Positions 57,124-63,274 of a stretch of DNA of 64,000 nt are shown here, piece by piece. Below the pieces are notes generated by a model that did no database searches, was not told the origin of the DNA, and saw nothing but the letters and a program-made list of their open reading frames with translations. Origin of the DNA: Roseivirga ehrenbergii (GTDB lineage Bacteria; Bacteroidota; Bacteroidia; Cytophagales; Cyclobacteriaceae); the NCBI RefSeq assembly GCF_001593005.1, contig NZ_LQZQ01000045.1, positions 1-64,000 on the forward strand, given 5' to 3'. The position numbers and the translations under genes were made by a program. Each line of letters starts with the position of its first letter. Position 1 is the first letter of the stretch.

Positions 57124-58209
57124 TTAAAGCTTCATTCCATTTATAGTATCATAGAGCAATTCAATCAATTCTTTTGAATGTGTTGGGAACGAAGCGATTC
57201 TAATTTGTTTTCCTTTATAGTCGCCATAGCCATTTCCAACGACAAAACCCTTAGATGTAAGTTCATCAATCCACTCTTGAGATGGGGTAGATGTATTTGC
57301 CACTATTACCGTTTTAGATCTTAGTTTTTCATCTGTAACAAAATGATTAAAAGAAGGATGATCGGTAACCAATTTTTGTAAAAGCAACCCTTTATAGGCG
57401 CTTTCTCTTCTTATCATATCAATGCCTTTATTCAGCATGTCGGTAGTTACTTTCATCAACAAATAAATGTTGAGCACATTAATGGTGTAGGTAGTCTGAA
57501 ACTTACTTCCGTTTTTAAGAAGGTTCGGTAGTGTTTGGTAAGTGCCTATTGAGTTTCCTTCGGCTTCCTTCTTTAAAGCTTTTTCAATACAACGGTTGTT
57601 CACAATCCATACGCCTAAACCTGCAGGCAGCCCAAAGCACTTTTGTACCGAAAAATAGGCGCTATCAATTTGTGTGAAATCAATGTCAATCACCGGAAAT
57701 GCCGAAACGCCATCAACGGCAATAATGGCTTCGGGATGTGACTTTCTTACTTTATAGATTTCTTCTACAGGAAAAGTAACTCCAGTACTGGTTTCGTTTA
57801 GCGCAAAACTGATCAATTCGCTGTCTTGAGGAATATTGTCTGGGTTTACTTCGGGAATGGTTCCAAACTTGGATTCATTCTTAAAAGCTTGTTTGCCAAG
57901 ATTTTTAGAAAACTCATAGAATCGGTTAGAGAAAGCGCCATTGCAGAAGTGATAAGATTTATCTACCACCAAATTTTGAATTTGTCGTTCCCAAATTTCT
58001 GTAGCTGAACTAAGAAAGAAGACGTGATAGTCTTCAGGAATATTCATCAAGCTCTTTACGTTTTCTATAGCATGTTGATAATAGGCGGCAGCTTGCTTGC
58101 TTCTATGATTCACCTCCATCACTTGCTCTTTAACGGCTTGCTTCAGGTGTTCTTCTACTGTGAAATAGAGGGCAGAGGGCCCTGGAGTAAAGAAAATTTT
58201 TCTAGCCAT
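57124..58209 (-). CDS. Class V aminotransferase, phosphoserine aminotransferase-like
   Basis: A 361-residue PLP enzyme. It begins MARKIFFTPGPSALYF and has FLSSATEIWERQ, AVDGVSAFPVIDID and the PLP Lys in YFSVQKCFGLPAGLGVW, like SerC/alanine-glyoxylate aminotransferases. Divergence from SerC and the lack of serA nearby leave the substrate open. It overlaps the upstream MFS gene by eight bases, so the two may act on one metabolite. Confidence 0.82.
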   Translation of the reverse strand: MARKIFFTPGPSALYFTVEEHLKQAVKEQVMEVNHRSKQAAAYYQHAIENVKSLMNIPEDYHVFFLSSATEIWERQIQNLVVDKSYHFCNGAFSNRFYEFSKNLGKQAFKNESKFGTIPEVNPDNIPQDSELISFALNETSTGVTFPVEEIYKVRKSHPEAIIAVDGVSAFPVIDIDFTQIDSAYFSVQKCFGLPAGLGVWIVNNRCIEKALKKEAEGNSIGTYQTLPNLLKNGSKFQTTYTINVLNIYLLMKVTTDMLNKGIDMIRRESAYKGLLLQKLVTDHPSFNHFVTDEKLRSKTVIVANTSTPSQEWIDELTSKGFVVGNGYGDYKGKQIRIASFPTHSKELIELLYDTINGMKL

Positions 58210-59389
58210 TGTGTTCTTCCTTTTTTAGCAACTCCAACTGTTGGTAATAGTGATTACGTACAAACAGAAAATAAAATGCTAACGGAAGCAAAAGTATTAA
58301 GCCGCAGATGAAAAACATCGTGTCGATGCCATAATATTCTGCAACATAACCTAGAGCTATTGAGCCTGCGCCAATTCCTAAGTCAACAGCAGAAAAGAAA
58401 GTTGCGTTTGCAGCGCCTCTTCTTTCAATAGGAACAATGTTTAAGGCCATGGTTTGAACAGTAGGCATAATCAATCCATTGCCCATACCTACTAAAACGC
58501 CACACATCATAAATGGCCAGAAAGTTTCTGTGTATTTGAGCCAAATCAATCCAATAATGGTAACCACCAAACCAATAACTACAATGCCCGTAGGGCCTTT
58601 TCTATCCATTACTTTGCCTACCAATAGTCTGGCTACAGCTACTCCAATGGCCATGAAAATGAAAAATAATGCGCCTTGTTTTAGACCAAGTTCATCACTG
58701 TAAATTCGGATAAAAGAAATGATGGCGGCATAGGGAAAAGCCCCCATGAACATTACTGCTGCAATACGATTTACACGGCCATCAAACATTTTTTTAATGC
58801 TAAGTTTCGTTTCTCCTGTTTTAATATTCGGTACTTTAATAATTAATGCGAGCACAAGCGAAGCAAAGCAAACAGCAAACGAAATATTAAAGAGGTTGGT
58901 GAAATTGCCTTGCCCCATAATCTGGTCGCCAGCGTAAGGTGCAAAAGCAATTGAGAAGGTCATAGCCAAACCGAAGTAGCCAATTCCTTCACCTCTTTTG
59001 CTTTCAGGAATAAGATCAGCCGCTATTGTGCTTCCACTAGTTGTAATCGTTCCCCAAGTAAAACCATGGAATACGCGGAGTATTAATAGAATAAAGAAAG
59101 TAGAGGATAAATGATAGAGCGCAAAGAGTATGGTGAAAATGGCCAAGGCCCAAAGATAAACCGATCGCCTTCCATAAGCATCTAACGCATAACCGCAAAA
59201 TGGGCGAATGATTAATGCCGATAAAGCATATACTCCAATAATGTAGCCTACTTGATTTTTATTAGCTCCTAAAGCATCTACCGCATATACTGGTAGGGTA
59301 GGCAGCAGAAAATAGAAAGCTGTTGCCATTAAAAAATAGGAGATGAAATGAAGGACGAAATCCCTGGTTAAAATCTTATCGGTCTGCAA
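58202..59389 (-). CDS. Major facilitator superfamily transporter
   Basis: A 395-residue protein with 12 hydrophobic segments. The loop 2-3 motif is GYALDAYGRRSVYLW, followed by RVFHGFTWGTITTSGSTIA in helix 4 and a second-half KVMDRKGPTGIVVIG. Substrate unknown; drug or metabolite export is typical. It is co-transcribed with the class V aminotransferase gene. Confidence 0.88.
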   Translation of the reverse strand: MQTDKILTRDFVLHFISYFLMATAFYFLLPTLPVYAVDALGANKNQVGYIIGVYALSALIIRPFCGYALDAYGRRSVYLWALAIFTILFALYHLSSTFFILLILRVFHGFTWGTITTSGSTIAADLIPESKRGEGIGYFGLAMTFSIAFAPYAGDQIMGQGNFTNLFNISFAVCFASLVLALIIKVPNIKTGETKLSIKKMFDGRVNRIAAVMFMGAFPYAAIISFIRIYSDELGLKQGALFFIFMAIGVAVARLLVGKVMDRKGPTGIVVIGLVVTIIGLIWLKYTETFWPFMMCGVLVGMGNGLIMPTVQTMALNIVPIERRGAANATFFSAVDLGIGAGSIALGYVAEYYGIDTMFFICGLILLLPLAFYFLFVRNHYYQQLELLKKEEHNG

Positions 59390-59552: not shown

Positions 59553-59587
59553 TTTGTTTTTATGGAACAATTGGCTTCGTAGATTTG
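59553..59587 (+). promoter_or_regulatory. Promoter-like boxes before the structured RNA region
   Basis: TAGATTTG at 59580-59587 is an exact -7 consensus. TTTT at 59557-59560 lies 19 bases upstream and TTTG at 59553-59556 lies 23 bases upstream, so the -33 fit is imperfect. Transcription would start near 59594. Confidence 0.5.
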
Positions 59588-59593
59588 TATGTA

Positions 59594-59845
59594 TATTCCC
59601 TAAGGGGCTCGGACACATTTTTGAACTTTACAAGTTAAACTAAAATTCCGGGTGATTCTCGCACAAAACAAGGCCTCACCTTGTTCCGTTTTTCGGTACA
59701 AGGCCTCGTTCGAAAGAACAGGATAACAGTGGACTGTTGCGGGCAAAGGGATAGCCCAAATCCTGTCTATTAAGGAGGTTCAAAAACCTCCGAGTTCTAA
59801 AGGGTTTATGAAAAGCTCCGATTTATCGGGGCTTTTTGCTTTTTA
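59594..59845 (+). ncRNA. Candidate structured non-coding RNA, class not recognised
   Basis: The 555 bases between the MFS gene and the secreted-protein operon hold no credible reading frame, yet show a -7 box, dense hairpins and a strong plus-strand terminator. Helices seen: AACTT/AAGTT (59624-59636); CCTTGT/ACAAGG with inner CCG/CGG (59679-59703); GTTC-GAAA-GAAC tetraloop (59708-59719); outer stem AGGAT/ATCCT (59720-59724 with 59760-59764) enclosing hairpins AACAG/CTGTT (59725-59738) and GGGC/GCCC (59741-59757), a three-way junction; GGAGGTT/AACCTCC with CAAA loop (59774-59791); then the terminator. It lacks the signatures I know for tmRNA, RNase P RNA and the SRP RNA; a divergent 6S RNA cannot be excluded. 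Confidence 0.55.
59811..59845 (+). terminator. Terminator of the candidate RNA
   Basis: A 12-bp stem (59811-59822 with 59825-59836, one G-U pair; core GCTCCGAT/ATCGGGGC) is followed by TTTTTGCTTTTT. No plus-strand gene precedes it, which is the main sign of an RNA gene here. Confidence 0.8.
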
Positions 59846-59877
59846 TTGAAGCTGAGCTGTTGAATTCACTTGGCCCT

Positions 59878-59919
59878 AAAAAAGCAATAAGTGGCATGAA
59901 ATTCATCATACCACTTATT
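59878..59919 (-). terminator. Terminator of the second ECF sigma operon
   Basis: AATAAGTGG (59886-59894) pairs with CCACTTATT (59911-59919), extended inward. On the minus strand it is followed by GCTTTTTTAG. It lies 25 bases after the last gene of the operon. Confidence 0.75.
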
Positions 59920-59944
59920 ACCTTGACCTTCTTTATTACTAAGG

Positions 59945-61261
59945 CTAATTTTTACCTTCTGCTTTACCGTTAAGTACTCTGACTTTATCGTAAACCGACT
60001 GTGCTTCTGTAGAACTCGGTTGAACAAAATAAATTCCTTCAGCGGATGAGTTAATACTTGAAGTCAGCTTCTTTACATCGATATCTTTCTTTAGTTGGTC
60101 TAAGCTGATACCACCTTTAGAGAATTGATCGATCTGGCTTTTGTTAACAGAGATTCTAACAGATTTTGGCAGCATATTTTTAGTGAAAAAGCTACTGAAG
60201 TTTAAGTTGAGAATGATCACTTCATCGCTTTTTACGCTGCGTAAAGTACGTCCGTAAGTAATCAGGCTTTCTTTGGCCAATTCAATCAAATCATCGAAAG
60301 ACTCTTCAATTTTATTGAGTTGCTCCTCTTCTTTCTTCTTGTATTCCTCTTCTTTGACAACATCAGCACGTTGGCCACTATAAAAAGCTACTCTAGCACT
60401 ATTACCTCCTGTATTGTATGATAAACCTATGTTGTACATTAAGCCAAAGCCTTCAAAATAGGTCCAGCTTGTGTTGCTTGTTTTTCTATAGGTTCCATCA
60501 AAAGTAGATGCAAAAAGGTCGTCAAGAATGCCTGCCATGATTTTAGTGTCAGACGATTCGTTGGTTTCATTGTCTATCACCTTGGTGGTTATTTTGCCTT
60601 TGGTAGCCTCAAAAGAAAGCTTGCCACTCAATAAATCTTTCAAATCTTTAAACTGAATGGAAGATGAGATTCGCTTTGTGTTTTTAGTGCCACGGCTTAA
60701 GAAAACGATGTTTTCACCTTGATTGGCCTGTTTGCTATTTTCATCAATGGGATAATATTTAACGTTCAGCATGATTTGCTCATTATCTTTTACTTCGGAA
60801 AGTATACTTCCATAATTCAATAAGAATTCTTTAGAGAGTTCTTTGAGCTGATTTTCTTTCTCCTTGTTAGCTTGGTCTATATTGATTTCCTTTTTATCAC
60901 CTGTATTTTTCTCACCGGTGGCTATCATATTTAGCTGTGTAAAAAGGACACTCTCAGATAAACTGTTATCACCCACATTGAAAATCACTCCTTTTCCAGG
61001 GATGTGAATCCCCTTAATTTCAGTTGAAAGAGAAGAGTAACGTTGTTGACTAGACTCCTTGAACATATCATTCAACACATTTTGAAGAATGATAATGTCG
61101 CGCTCCATTTTAGGGAGTTTAGACAAGTCTTGCTCTTGAGAAGGAAATCCGCTTACCACTGTTGACCCAGTAGTGCTAACGAATCGTTGTGCATTTAATG
61201 AACCTCCAAACATCATAAGAGATGCTAAAACGAGTCCTTTGATTGTTGTTTTCATTTTCAT
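59945..61261 (-). CDS. Secreted protein with two copies of an unrecognised domain
   Basis: From ATG at 61261 the protein has 438 residues and a signal peptide ending SLNAQ. It consists of two similar halves (about 50-230 and 235-415). Each has an opening helix (DIIILQNVLNDMF; IMAGILDDLFAS), a G-rich strand pair (GKGVIFNVG; GFGLMYNIG), a helix of the type FLLNYGSILSEVKDNE / SLITYGRTLRSVKSDE, then a strand ILNLNF or IMLNVKYY and a final helix with DLLSGKLS / QFSKGGIS. The same domain occurs once in the upstream gene. No catalytic motif is seen. It lies 19 bases after the upstream gene, at the end of a sigma/anti-sigma operon. Confidence 0.75.
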   Translation of the reverse strand: MKMKTTIKGLVLASLMMFGGSLNAQRFVSTTGSTVVSGFPSQEQDLSKLPKMERDIIILQNVLNDMFKESSQQRYSSLSTEIKGIHIPGKGVIFNVGDNSLSESVLFTQLNMIATGEKNTGDKKEINIDQANKEKENQLKELSKEFLLNYGSILSEVKDNEQIMLNVKYYPIDENSKQANQGENIVFLSRGTKNTKRISSSIQFKDLKDLLSGKLSFEATKGKITTKVIDNETNESSDTKIMAGILDDLFASTFDGTYRKTSNTSWTYFEGFGLMYNIGLSYNTGGNSARVAFYSGQRADVVKEEEYKKKEEEQLNKIEESFDDLIELAKESLITYGRTLRSVKSDEVIILNLNFSSFFTKNMLPKSVRISVNKSQIDQFSKGGISLDQLKKDIDVKKLTSSINSSAEGIYFVQPSSTEAQSVYDKVRVLNGKAEGKN

Positions 61262-61280
61262 GATTTTGATATTTTGATTG

Positions 61281-61889
61281 TTATTTCTTTTCAATTTTGA
61301 TTCTGTCTGACAATTGACTTTCGTTGATTTCTCCTCTACTGAAAGCCTCTATGTCGCTCATTCTCCAGACTGCTTCTAGCTTGTATGTTCGCTTTGCTGA
61401 TTTCGGAGAAGGAGGGAGTTCTTTTCCATCTACTTTTATTTTGCTGTCTTCGATGTTAAACACAAACCTGAATTCTTCATTTGGTTTTAGCTGAGGTAGA
61501 TAGGAATAGAAATCCCTGATAAATTTCTTGGTAGCCTCTTCTAATCTTTTTTGTTGCAGGCTGATGATCTCATCGGTATAGAAGGTATCGAGTACCTCGT
61601 AATCATTGTTGCCGAACCTAGCGGATGCCGTAGCTATATATACGTTTGCATTATAAGCTTCAAAGTGAATCTCAATGCCTTTGCCGTCTTTGTAATCTCC
61701 TTCACTTTCTTTTATGTTATTCAATAGCACTGCATCGTCATAATGTTTGAGGAAGTTTTCAAAAGTGACTCTGGTAATTTCTAAGTCTCTTTTGATTGGG
61801 CTCAAGCCATTTTGTTGTAGTTGGGCTTGTGCGCTTATGCTTACCACCAGACCAAGGAGGTAAATCAGATATTTTGAGTTTTTGACCAT
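61281..61889 (-). CDS. Secreted protein with one copy of the same unrecognised domain
   Basis: From ATG at 61889 the protein has 202 residues and a signal peptide ending ISAQAQ. The domain shows GIEIHFEAYNANVYIA, the helix KKFIRDFYSYLPQLKPNE, the strand FRFVFNIE and the end helix DIEAFSRGEINESQLSDRI, parallel to the two copies in the downstream gene. The frame opens at 61919, but the signal peptide starts at the chosen Met. It starts one base after the anti-sigma stop, so it is translationally coupled. Confidence 0.75.
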   Translation of the reverse strand: MVKNSKYLIYLLGLVVSISAQAQLQQNGLSPIKRDLEITRVTFENFLKHYDDAVLLNNIKESEGDYKDGKGIEIHFEAYNANVYIATASARFGNNDYEVLDTFYTDEIISLQQKRLEEATKKFIRDFYSYLPQLKPNEEFRFVFNIEDSKIKVDGKELPPSPKSAKRTYKLEAVWRMSDIEAFSRGEINESQLSDRIKIEKK

Positions 61890-61890
61890 T

Positions 61891-62664
61891 TTACTTTTTG
61901 TTTGGGTTGTTTGCGGCAATGATTTCTACTTTTTCAGAAAGCGTCAATATTGCATCTTCAATGTCCAGTTGCTTGTTGATGGTGGCATCTTCAAGATTGG
62001 TAAATGCAGCTTGAATGCTTCTTAAATCTTCGATGCGCTGACTTTCCCAATTGTTTGAAAAGGCGACAACAATTTCCCTCAGCATATCTCGATAATCGCC
62101 TCCGAGTTTATCATTCAGCGAAGCCATTTGATACATCAAATCATTTTTCTCTTGCTCAAATACCTTTTTGATTACTTCTTCGGAACTCATATTGGCCTGT
62201 AGAACTTGCATTTCATAACCGATACTGTCCTGGACAGATTTCAAACTGGTTTGCATATAATCGAGCATCAATTGGCGGTCATTATTTAAAATATCAGCGA
62301 CTTGTTGCTCGGTGAGGCCATTTTGGATATCGCCAAAAGCCATTTGAAGCCCATCATTGTTATACTGAATTGAAAAACCAGAAGCCCAACCTGCTGTGAT
62401 GATGAGGAGGATTGTAGCAGCTATGGCTACATATTTTCTCCAGTAGAGCCATTCACTATTCGTTTGTGGCATCATGAAAGGAATAGACTCGGGTTCTTCA
62501 TCATTCAAATCGGCCATTACCATTCTAGTGGCTTCAAGTACTTGCAGTTCTTCTTTTAACTCAGGATGAGATTTTATATAATCATCGATCTGAGCTTTTT
62601 TCTCTGGACTGATCTCATCGTAGAGATAATCCATAAGATCTTCGTTTGTTGGTTTATAGCTCAT
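61891..62664 (-). CDS. Anti-sigma factor-like membrane protein
   Basis: A 257-residue protein. The N-terminus has the anti-sigma layout without zinc ligands (DLMDYLYDEISPEKKAQIDDY), followed by one membrane helix (about 73-95) and an exported helical C-terminal domain with EVIKKVFEQEKNDLMYQMA and a long coiled segment. It overlaps the sigma gene by 11 bases. It should hold the sigma factor at the membrane until an envelope signal. Confidence 0.82.
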   Translation of the reverse strand: MSYKPTNEDLMDYLYDEISPEKKAQIDDYIKSHPELKEELQVLEATRMVMADLNDEEPESIPFMMPQTNSEWLYWRKYVAIAATILLIITAGWASGFSIQYNNDGLQMAFGDIQNGLTEQQVADILNNDRQLMLDYMQTSLKSVQDSIGYEMQVLQANMSSEEVIKKVFEQEKNDLMYQMASLNDKLGGDYRDMLREIVVAFSNNWESQRIEDLRSIQAAFTNLEDATINKQLDIEDAILTLSEKVEIIAANNPNKK

Positions 62665-63274
62665 AATGAATTGTTTCTTGGTTAATGTTCCATTGGGCCA
62701 GTAGCTTTTTTAAGGAGCCTAATGCATAATACAAGCGAGACTTGACTGTGTTTTCTGAAATGTCCATCGCCTCGGCAATCTCTCTTATTTTCAGCCCCTC
62801 ATATTCTTTCATAATCACCACCAGTCGTTGTTCTTCTGGTAATTCGGCCAATGCTTTTTTCAATACTTGTTTTAATTCCATACTGCCGAATTCCTTTTCT
62901 GGGTCACTATTCCTGTCTGTCGATTCAGAATTCTGAATAAAGTCTTGGTCGGTTTTCGACTGCACTTTCATAAAAGGAAAAACCCATTTTGCCTTTTGTC
63001 TTCGGGCTTCTTCATGACAGTAATTAGAAGCAATCCTATAGAGCCAAGGTTTAAACCTGCGCTCATCTTGTAAGGATTTCAGGTTCTTGTTCATGCTGAT
63101 AAAGGTTTTCTGAGTCACCTCCATTGCTTGATCATGGTCGCCAAAATACTTTAGAGCAAAGTTGTAAATACGCTTATACCATTGTTTCACCAGTTGGTTA
63201 AGCGCAATGGCATCCCCCTGTTTTGCAGCGGTAATCAAGAAGTTGGTTTGTGGCATCAGGTTGATTTCCTTCAT
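62654..63274 (-). CDS. ECF-type RNA polymerase sigma factor, second
   Basis: A 206-residue sigma factor. Region 2 has FGDHDQAMEVTQKTFISM and PWLYRIASNYCHEEARRQ; region 4 has LPEEQRLVVIMKEYEGL and IREIAEAMDISENTVKSRL. ATG at 63256 is an alternative start. It heads the operon with the anti-sigma gene and two secreted-domain genes. Confidence 0.92.
   Translation of the reverse strand: MKEINLMPQTNFLITAAKQGDAIALNQLVKQWYKRIYNFALKYFGDHDQAMEVTQKTFISMNKNLKSLQDERRFKPWLYRIASNYCHEEARRQKAKWVFPFMKVQSKTDQDFIQNSESTDRNSDPEKEFGSMELKQVLKKALAELPEEQRLVVIMKEYEGLKIREIAEAMDISENTVKSRLYYALGSLKKLLAQWNINQETIHYEL

Follow-up and report, generated by a model that had tools for sequence, protein, structure and literature searches.

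A probable diverged 6S RNA gene in Roseivirga ehrenbergii and related Cytophagales

The locus and its neighbours

The window analysed here comprises positions 1 to 64,000 of the forward strand of contig NZ_LQZQ01000045.1 of Roseivirga ehrenbergii, a member of the Cytophagales. Near its right end, two genes on the minus strand, one for an MFS transporter and one for a protein without a Pfam match, enclose an intergenic block (59594-59845) that a sequence-only reading had described as gene-free (Table 1). Indeed, the list of open reading frames contains no plus-strand frame of 50 or more amino acids between these genes, and only a minus-strand frame of 53 amino acids (59866-60027) overlaps the right edge of the block.

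Table 1. Features of the RNA locus and of its surroundings in the window
Feature	Position	Strand	Remarks
Class-V aminotransferase gene	57124-58209		Pfam
MFS transporter gene	58202-59389	minus	Pfam MFS_1
-7 promoter box TAGATTTG	59580-59587	+	Bacteroidota consensus TAnnTTTG; just outside 59594-59845
Probable 6S-type RNA gene	59592-59845	+	models R1 and R2 match 59616-59784; promoter; terminator; homology to 6S-Flavo and Bacteroidales-1
Outer closing stem, 5' strand	59604-59613	+	pairs with 59789-59798
Inner closing stem, 5' strand	59621-59629	+	pairs with 59775-59783
Central bulge, 5' strand	59630-59649	+	expected pRNA template
Apical arm	59650-59757	+	helices, then branched apex
Arm helix GGGT/GCCC	59650-59653/59754-59757	+	
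Arm helix TTCT/GGAT	within 59650-59757	+	
Arm helix AACA/TGTT	59667-59670/59735-59738	+	
Apical hairpin 1	59679-59703	+	sequence variable; two-sided changes at all 7 pairs
Apical hairpin 2	59704-59722	+	GAAA tetraloop 59712-59715
Central bulge, 3' strand	59758-59774	+	conserved core AAATC(C/T)TGTC
Inner closing stem, 3' strand	59775-59783	+	
Outer closing stem, 3' strand	59789-59798	+	
Intrinsic terminator	59809-59845	+	hairpin 59809-59838 (13 pairs), then T-run
Downstream protein gene	59945-61294	minus	without Pfam match

The MFS transporter gene lies directly upstream of the RNA, in divergent orientation, in all 17 full-length loci of the genus, which might be taken as a sign that the block is a cis-regulatory leader or an untranslated region of a neighbouring gene. 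However, both neighbours in the window lie on the other strand, the RNA has a promoter box and a terminator of its own, and the downstream gene of the window adjoins it in only 3 of the 17 genus loci, so that the RNA is not part of what follows. The probability of such a leader is close to nil, in agreement with the sequence-only reading. A homologue of the class-V aminotransferase also adjoins the RNA in distant members of the taxonomic family (L066, L069, L091, L092 and L134), and the neighbourhood is therefore old.

The same window carries a gene of an ECF-type sigma factor (62654-63274, Pfam Sigma70_r2/r4). It is followed (region 61891-63274) by a frame without a Pfam match which, as a guess from its position, might encode an anti-sigma factor, and then by two more proteins without a match, down to 59945.

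Promoter and terminator

The -7 box of the RNA follows the promoter consensus described for Bacteroidota (PMC7366714). In the 90 nt that precede the model start, TAnnTTTG was found in 17 of 17 genus loci, where 1.1 were expected from letter shuffles, and in 28 of the 33 other family loci (2.1 expected). A plain sigma-70 scan gave no site, the consensus of this phylum, as given in PMC7366714, being different. Transcription probably starts at about 59592, and the gene boundaries in Table 1 are the inferred ends of the transcript.

A crude scan detected a terminator-like element downstream of the RNA in all 17 genus loci, weak and distant in one of them (L009), and in 28 of the 33 other family loci. 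Of the promoter-like boxes reported by the sequence-only reading, a -7 box is thus supported, as is the strong terminator; together with the folding and covariation results given below, they bear out its view that the block holds a separate gene for a structured RNA of some 250 nt. The sequence of the terminator hairpin recurs elsewhere in the same genome (G000:C45:448800-448837, 83% identity over about 40 bases), and terminator-like stretches of this sequence are also found at other places in related genomes of the genus.

Secondary structure and covariation

Folding of the plus strand is far more stable than that of shuffled sequences (z -5.34, with 0 of 200 shuffles as good); the minus strand also beats its shuffles, less strongly (z -3.82). 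The structure was derived from 17 genus sequences with RNAalifold. Two covariance models were used: R1, built from the 17 genus sequences only, and R2, built from 61 sequences of three groups, namely the RNA of this family, 6S-Flavo (RF01685) and Bacteroidales-1 (RF01693).

The MAFFT alignment of the 17 genus sequences pairs in 97.3% of cells, with two-sided changes at 14 of 41 pairs (54 cells, against 15.2 in shuffled alignments). Further pair types number 28 in the genus alignment, and 98 of 500 shuffles (mean 26.0) had at least as many, while none of the 500 attained the other four of the five measures. For 50 family sequences aligned to R1, the figures are 93.8% of cells paired and 25 of 41 pairs with two-sided changes (322 cells against 100.5), slid controls falling to 28-52% paired. 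The 61-sequence alignment of all three groups yields 91.8% and 31 of 41 (358 cells against 117.6). All these figures lean towards the structure, because the genus structure was taken from the same sequences, the two larger alignments were fitted to that structure, and the shuffles keep the relatedness of the sequences. Covariation is strong and the structure is real, which is the outcome of the comparison of related genomes for paired changes that the sequence-only reading had proposed.

The outer closing stem shows two-sided changes at 3 of 10 pairs within the genus, and the inner one at 6 of 9 pairs, with 93.5% of cells paired among the 50 family sequences; the mean pair probability of both stems in the window is 0.93. 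The two strands of the central bulge measure 16-21 nt (5') and 14-18 nt (3') in the 61 sequences, according to the model-fitted alignment, and a similar core of the 3' strand is found in all three groups. The 5' strand has a mean unpaired probability of 0.81 in the window, and the 3' side (59757-59774) only 0.54, being partly unpaired in the ensemble. Each of the three arm helices has at least one pair with a two-sided change in the 50 family sequences. The four pairs of AACA/TGTT exist in every one of the 50 sequences, and two of these pairs alternate between CG, AU, UA, UG and GU. Apical hairpin 2 has two-sided changes at 3 of 6 pairs in the family, and its loop in the genus alignment, counted by eye, is GNRA in 7 and UUCG in 6 of 17 sequences.

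The most conserved segments of the molecule are found at the apical junction (1.79 and 1.85 bits, against 1.35 and 1.42 bits for the bulge), which is formed by AAAACAAGGCCUCA ... CCUCGU ... AGGAUAACAGUGGA. The three-way junction and the GAAA tetraloop of the sequence-only reading are supported. The local hairpin ACAGU..ACUGU (59730-59738; AACAG/CUGUU in the minimum free energy structure) is stable in a single-sequence fold, but at one pair it is kept in only 18 of 50 family sequences, against 50 of 50 for the four pairs of the competing helix AACA/TGTT. Its rejection by the family comparison calls for caution with readings based on folding only.

Further candidates inside the molecule found no support. 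A pseudoknot between AGGAT and ATC(C/T)T can form at five of six positions in 43-50 of the 50 family sequences, with hardly any compensating variation; the sixth position pairs in 39 of 50, and 2 of its 14 cells that are not A-U are compensated on both sides. A hairpin within the 3' bulge strand, as in Bacillus subtilis 6S-1, could form at least three of four pairs in 42 of 50 sequences, and swapped arms gave a mean of 42.4. The search for a mimic of the -7 box in the 3' bulge strand produced nothing better than shuffles.

Rfam models and reverse searches

At the RNA locus, no match attains the gathering score of any Rfam family; the window has a single match of this kind, a tRNA at 130-203. 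Neither tmRNA, RNase P, SRP nor a riboswitch is therefore matched at the locus, in line with the sequence-only reading. Hits to rimP, rnk_pseudo and BSnc120 in Rfam are confined to the 3' end of the RNA, which contains the terminator, and were put down to the chance resemblance of a hairpin followed by a T-run.

In E-value mode, the 6S-Flavo model RF01685 aligns end to end with the RNA of the window at 21.4 bits (cut-off 85, E 1.3), as one of 17 weak hits listed; in L031, a relative, the score is 23.8 bits and common blocks are evident. Not one of the 26 family genomes searched, the 19 of the genus included, has a match to it over the cut-off, and the nine family genomes of the phylum sample give no match at E <= 0.01. 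Genome-wide, no match was obtained in the window's own genome at E <= 10. Among the sub-threshold matches listed for the 19 genus genomes, three fall exactly on the locus (G012, G014 and G016) and the other 12 elsewhere; at E <= 10, the model also matches 4 of 14 control genomes. A divergent family locus (L134 in G495), which lies beside the same aminotransferase gene, reaches 39.6 bits with 6S-Flavo (E 0.0021).

The canonical 6S model RF00013 (cut-off 46.4 bits) exceeds its cut-off in none of the 19 genus genomes, and its one weak match (G006, E 4.76) lies at another place than the RNA locus. The Bacteroidales-1 model RF01693 produced 15 matches in 392 genomes of the phylum at E <= 0.01, five over and ten below its cut-off (60 bits), and all ten of the latter overlap either 6S-Flavo loci (eight) or the RNA studied here (two). 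The two belong to the nine family genomes of the sample (30.4 and 30.8 bits); none of the nine is over the cut-off, and the window's own genome has no match. In a control Bacteroides genome, RF01693 is over its cut-off and RF00013 gives no match.

Since sub-threshold hits of RF01685 alone are only a lead, R1 was built as a test in the reverse direction. Both R1 and R2 match the window (Table 1). Of 20 Rfam 6S-Flavo loci, R1 recovers 17 in the correct position and on the correct strand (E 8e-5 to 0.09), with no other match at E <= 10 in the 62,255 bases of this test DNA; the 20 loci are taken from the 23 that exceed the cut-off in the 392 phylum genomes. It also matches 4 of 5 Bacteroidales-1 loci, with none of its 11 matches off target. 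Searched against the 392 phylum genomes, R1 matches each of the nine genomes from the window's family and a single further site (G125:C37:76275-76413, E 0.023), which is the 6S-Flavo locus of that genome, found blind. Two chance matches of R1 (alignment A4) were removed by a repeated search at E 1, and A4 was not used further; alignment A5 leaves out the loci that R1 missed (L099, L103, L104, L107, L046, L050 and L056), together with several loci that repeat, or are closely related to, ones already included.

Residue-level alignments reveal core blocks common to the RNA, 6S-Flavo and Bacteroidales-1. Because the model searches match in both directions and are exact in position, the three are read as one homologous group on the grounds of sequence comparison. 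The suggestion that the block represents a new structured RNA class, unrelated to any known family, which the sequence-only reading had put forward, could draw on the absence of an Rfam match at gathering score and on the fact that the best below-threshold hits of a plain scan touch only the terminator end. It is nevertheless contradicted by the two-way, position-exact matches with 6S-Flavo and Bacteroidales-1, which have no counterpart elsewhere in the tested locus DNA. Such a class is already refuted unless all of these matches are convergent, which is very improbable. The match to a known family that was to decide the question thus exists, but only below the cut-off of the database.

Distribution

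A DNA search of the 19 genus genomes returned long matches in 17, the closest genome (G004) being 99% identical. A further genome (G010) has the locus split over two contig ends, where R2 finds nothing; counting it, the RNA is present in 18 of 19. The last one (G009) has terminator-like matches only and also lacks the neighbouring aminotransferase gene, hence the region may be absent from this assembly.

In the wider family, R1 finds one copy each in 108 of 118 genomes and R2 adds one more (G495), giving 109, once per genome. Six of the nine remaining genomes have aminotransferase loci, and these six contain no credible RNA (best E 0.76, inside the aminotransferase gene). The other three have no aminotransferase match (G413 and G444) or only a 32% match (G504).

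Searched against 192 genomes of the order, R2 matches 33, of which 21 belong to the window's family, 11 to family f72 and one to family f70, the last two (12 genomes) lying outside its training set; the other 159 have no match. No match at E <= 0.1 came from two further families of the order (f2 and f3), represented by six genomes of the phylum sample. In the phylum sample, R2 matches 59 of 392 genomes and leaves 333 without a match. One R2 match in a genome of the same phylum (G123:C24:695053-695232, E 0.0033) is possibly a further 6S RNA.

Interpretation as a 6S RNA

The element is very probably a 6S RNA gene, belonging to a Cytophagales branch of the RNA described by RF01685 and RF01693 that has diverged too far for those models. 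This identity rests on the homology seen by the models in both directions and on the layout of closing stem, large central bulge and apical arm, with a bulge that the model-fitted alignment shows in the 61 sequences from all three groups. The element further has the appearance of a free-standing RNA gene with a predicted housekeeping promoter and terminator.

In Escherichia coli 6S RNA, the 5' strand of the bulge is the template of pRNAs. By analogy with 6S biology, the RNA of R. ehrenbergii would imitate an open promoter and would bind and sequester the holoenzyme of RNA polymerase with the housekeeping sigma factor when growth slows. The polymerase would then copy the 5' bulge strand into short pRNAs, and the RNA would be released. 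The role of the central bulge as pRNA template in 6S RNA is described in PMC8414754. Within the phylum, 6S-Flavo was placed among RNAs performing a known function by Weinberg 2010 (PMC2864571), 6S RNA was detected in Flavobacterium psychrophilum (PMC9723704), and Ryan 2020 (PMC7366714) reported a 6S RNA with two classes of pRNA in Bacteroides thetaiotaomicron, whose equivalence with the Rfam locus is assumed here. No report of a 6S RNA for the Cytophagales lineage was found in the literature examined, although an earlier one is possible and Wehner 2014 may list candidates.

Several points do not fit a 6S RNA: conservation is stronger at the apical junction than in the bulge, and the bulge contains no mimicry of a promoter box above chance. 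Nor does the bulge have a supported 3' hairpin, and its 3' strand is unpaired only in part in the window's ensemble. The first two points, together with the absence of over-cut-off matches to RF00013 in the 19 genus genomes, could speak for a Bacteroidota group that is homologous throughout but has another, non-6S function. Against this stand the layout of closing stem, central bulge and apical arm common to the group, the 6S RNA with two pRNA classes reported for Bacteroides (PMC7366714), and the control Bacteroides genome in which RF01693 responds and RF00013 is silent. We regard a non-6S function of the whole group as improbable. The misfits would be compatible with an additional role of the apex, but they do not undo the homology. 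It is conceivable, though rather unlikely, that the branched-apex junction is a second binding site, beside the 6S role, in which case it would serve the housekeeping sigma factor of Bacteroidota or another protein.

As 6S RNA is a global transcription regulator, its probable presence here is of interest since the Rfam 6S models miss it in the tested genomes of this family. R1 and R2 would place a 6S RNA in 109 of 118 sampled family genomes and, elsewhere in the order, in 12 genomes from two families, which is useful for annotation. Much of the phylum is still without a 6S call: in at least 264 of the 392 genomes, R2, RF01685 and RF01693 all fail to give a match at the thresholds applied. The searches show, at the level of sequence, that 6S-Flavo and Bacteroidales-1, separate Rfam families without a clan in the Rfam copy used, form one homologous group. 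Given the unusual TAnnTTTG promoter of Bacteroidota, the aligned set of 6S RNAs from this phylum could serve to address how 6S RNA imitates a different promoter.

Comparison with known RNAs

With canonical 6S RNA (RF00013), the RNA of R. ehrenbergii shares the order of closing stem, central bulge and apical arm, as described in PMC8414754, but its apex is branched and the RF00013 model stays below its cut-off throughout the genus genomes.

The likeness to 6S-Flavo (RF01685) includes the core blocks GGGUGA, AAA.CAAGCC-like and UAGCCC-AAA.C(U/C)UGU, a closing stem ending in GGAGUU/GGAGGUU and a central bulge of similar size. However, the RNA of the window scores far below the cut-off of that model, and the stretch enclosed by the model ends is as much as about 50 nt shorter in 6S-Flavo RNAs (the shortest has 119 nt, that of the window 169), the difference lying in the apex. 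TAnnTTTG was found in none of the 16 6S-Flavo loci printed (of L042-L061; 90 nt upstream of the R1 match), and many of those printed have, by eye, an upstream block like CGTTCTTTAAAATA instead; therefore, 6S genes of Flavobacteriia may use a different promoter. The closing stem of 6S-Flavo also seems to continue directly into a T-run, doubling as a terminator.

Bacteroidales-1 (RF01693) is annotated in Rfam as "6S-Bacteroidales RNA suggested". Its model matches only two of the nine family genomes, below the cut-off, but it shares with the RNA studied here the blocks ACCGAG, GGCC, GUGGA, CUCAAAUCUUGUC and GGAG. The apex of the Bacteroidales-1 model carries multiloop marks, and TAnnTTTG lies upstream in all four of its printed loci, as it does upstream of the RNA of R. 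ehrenbergii.
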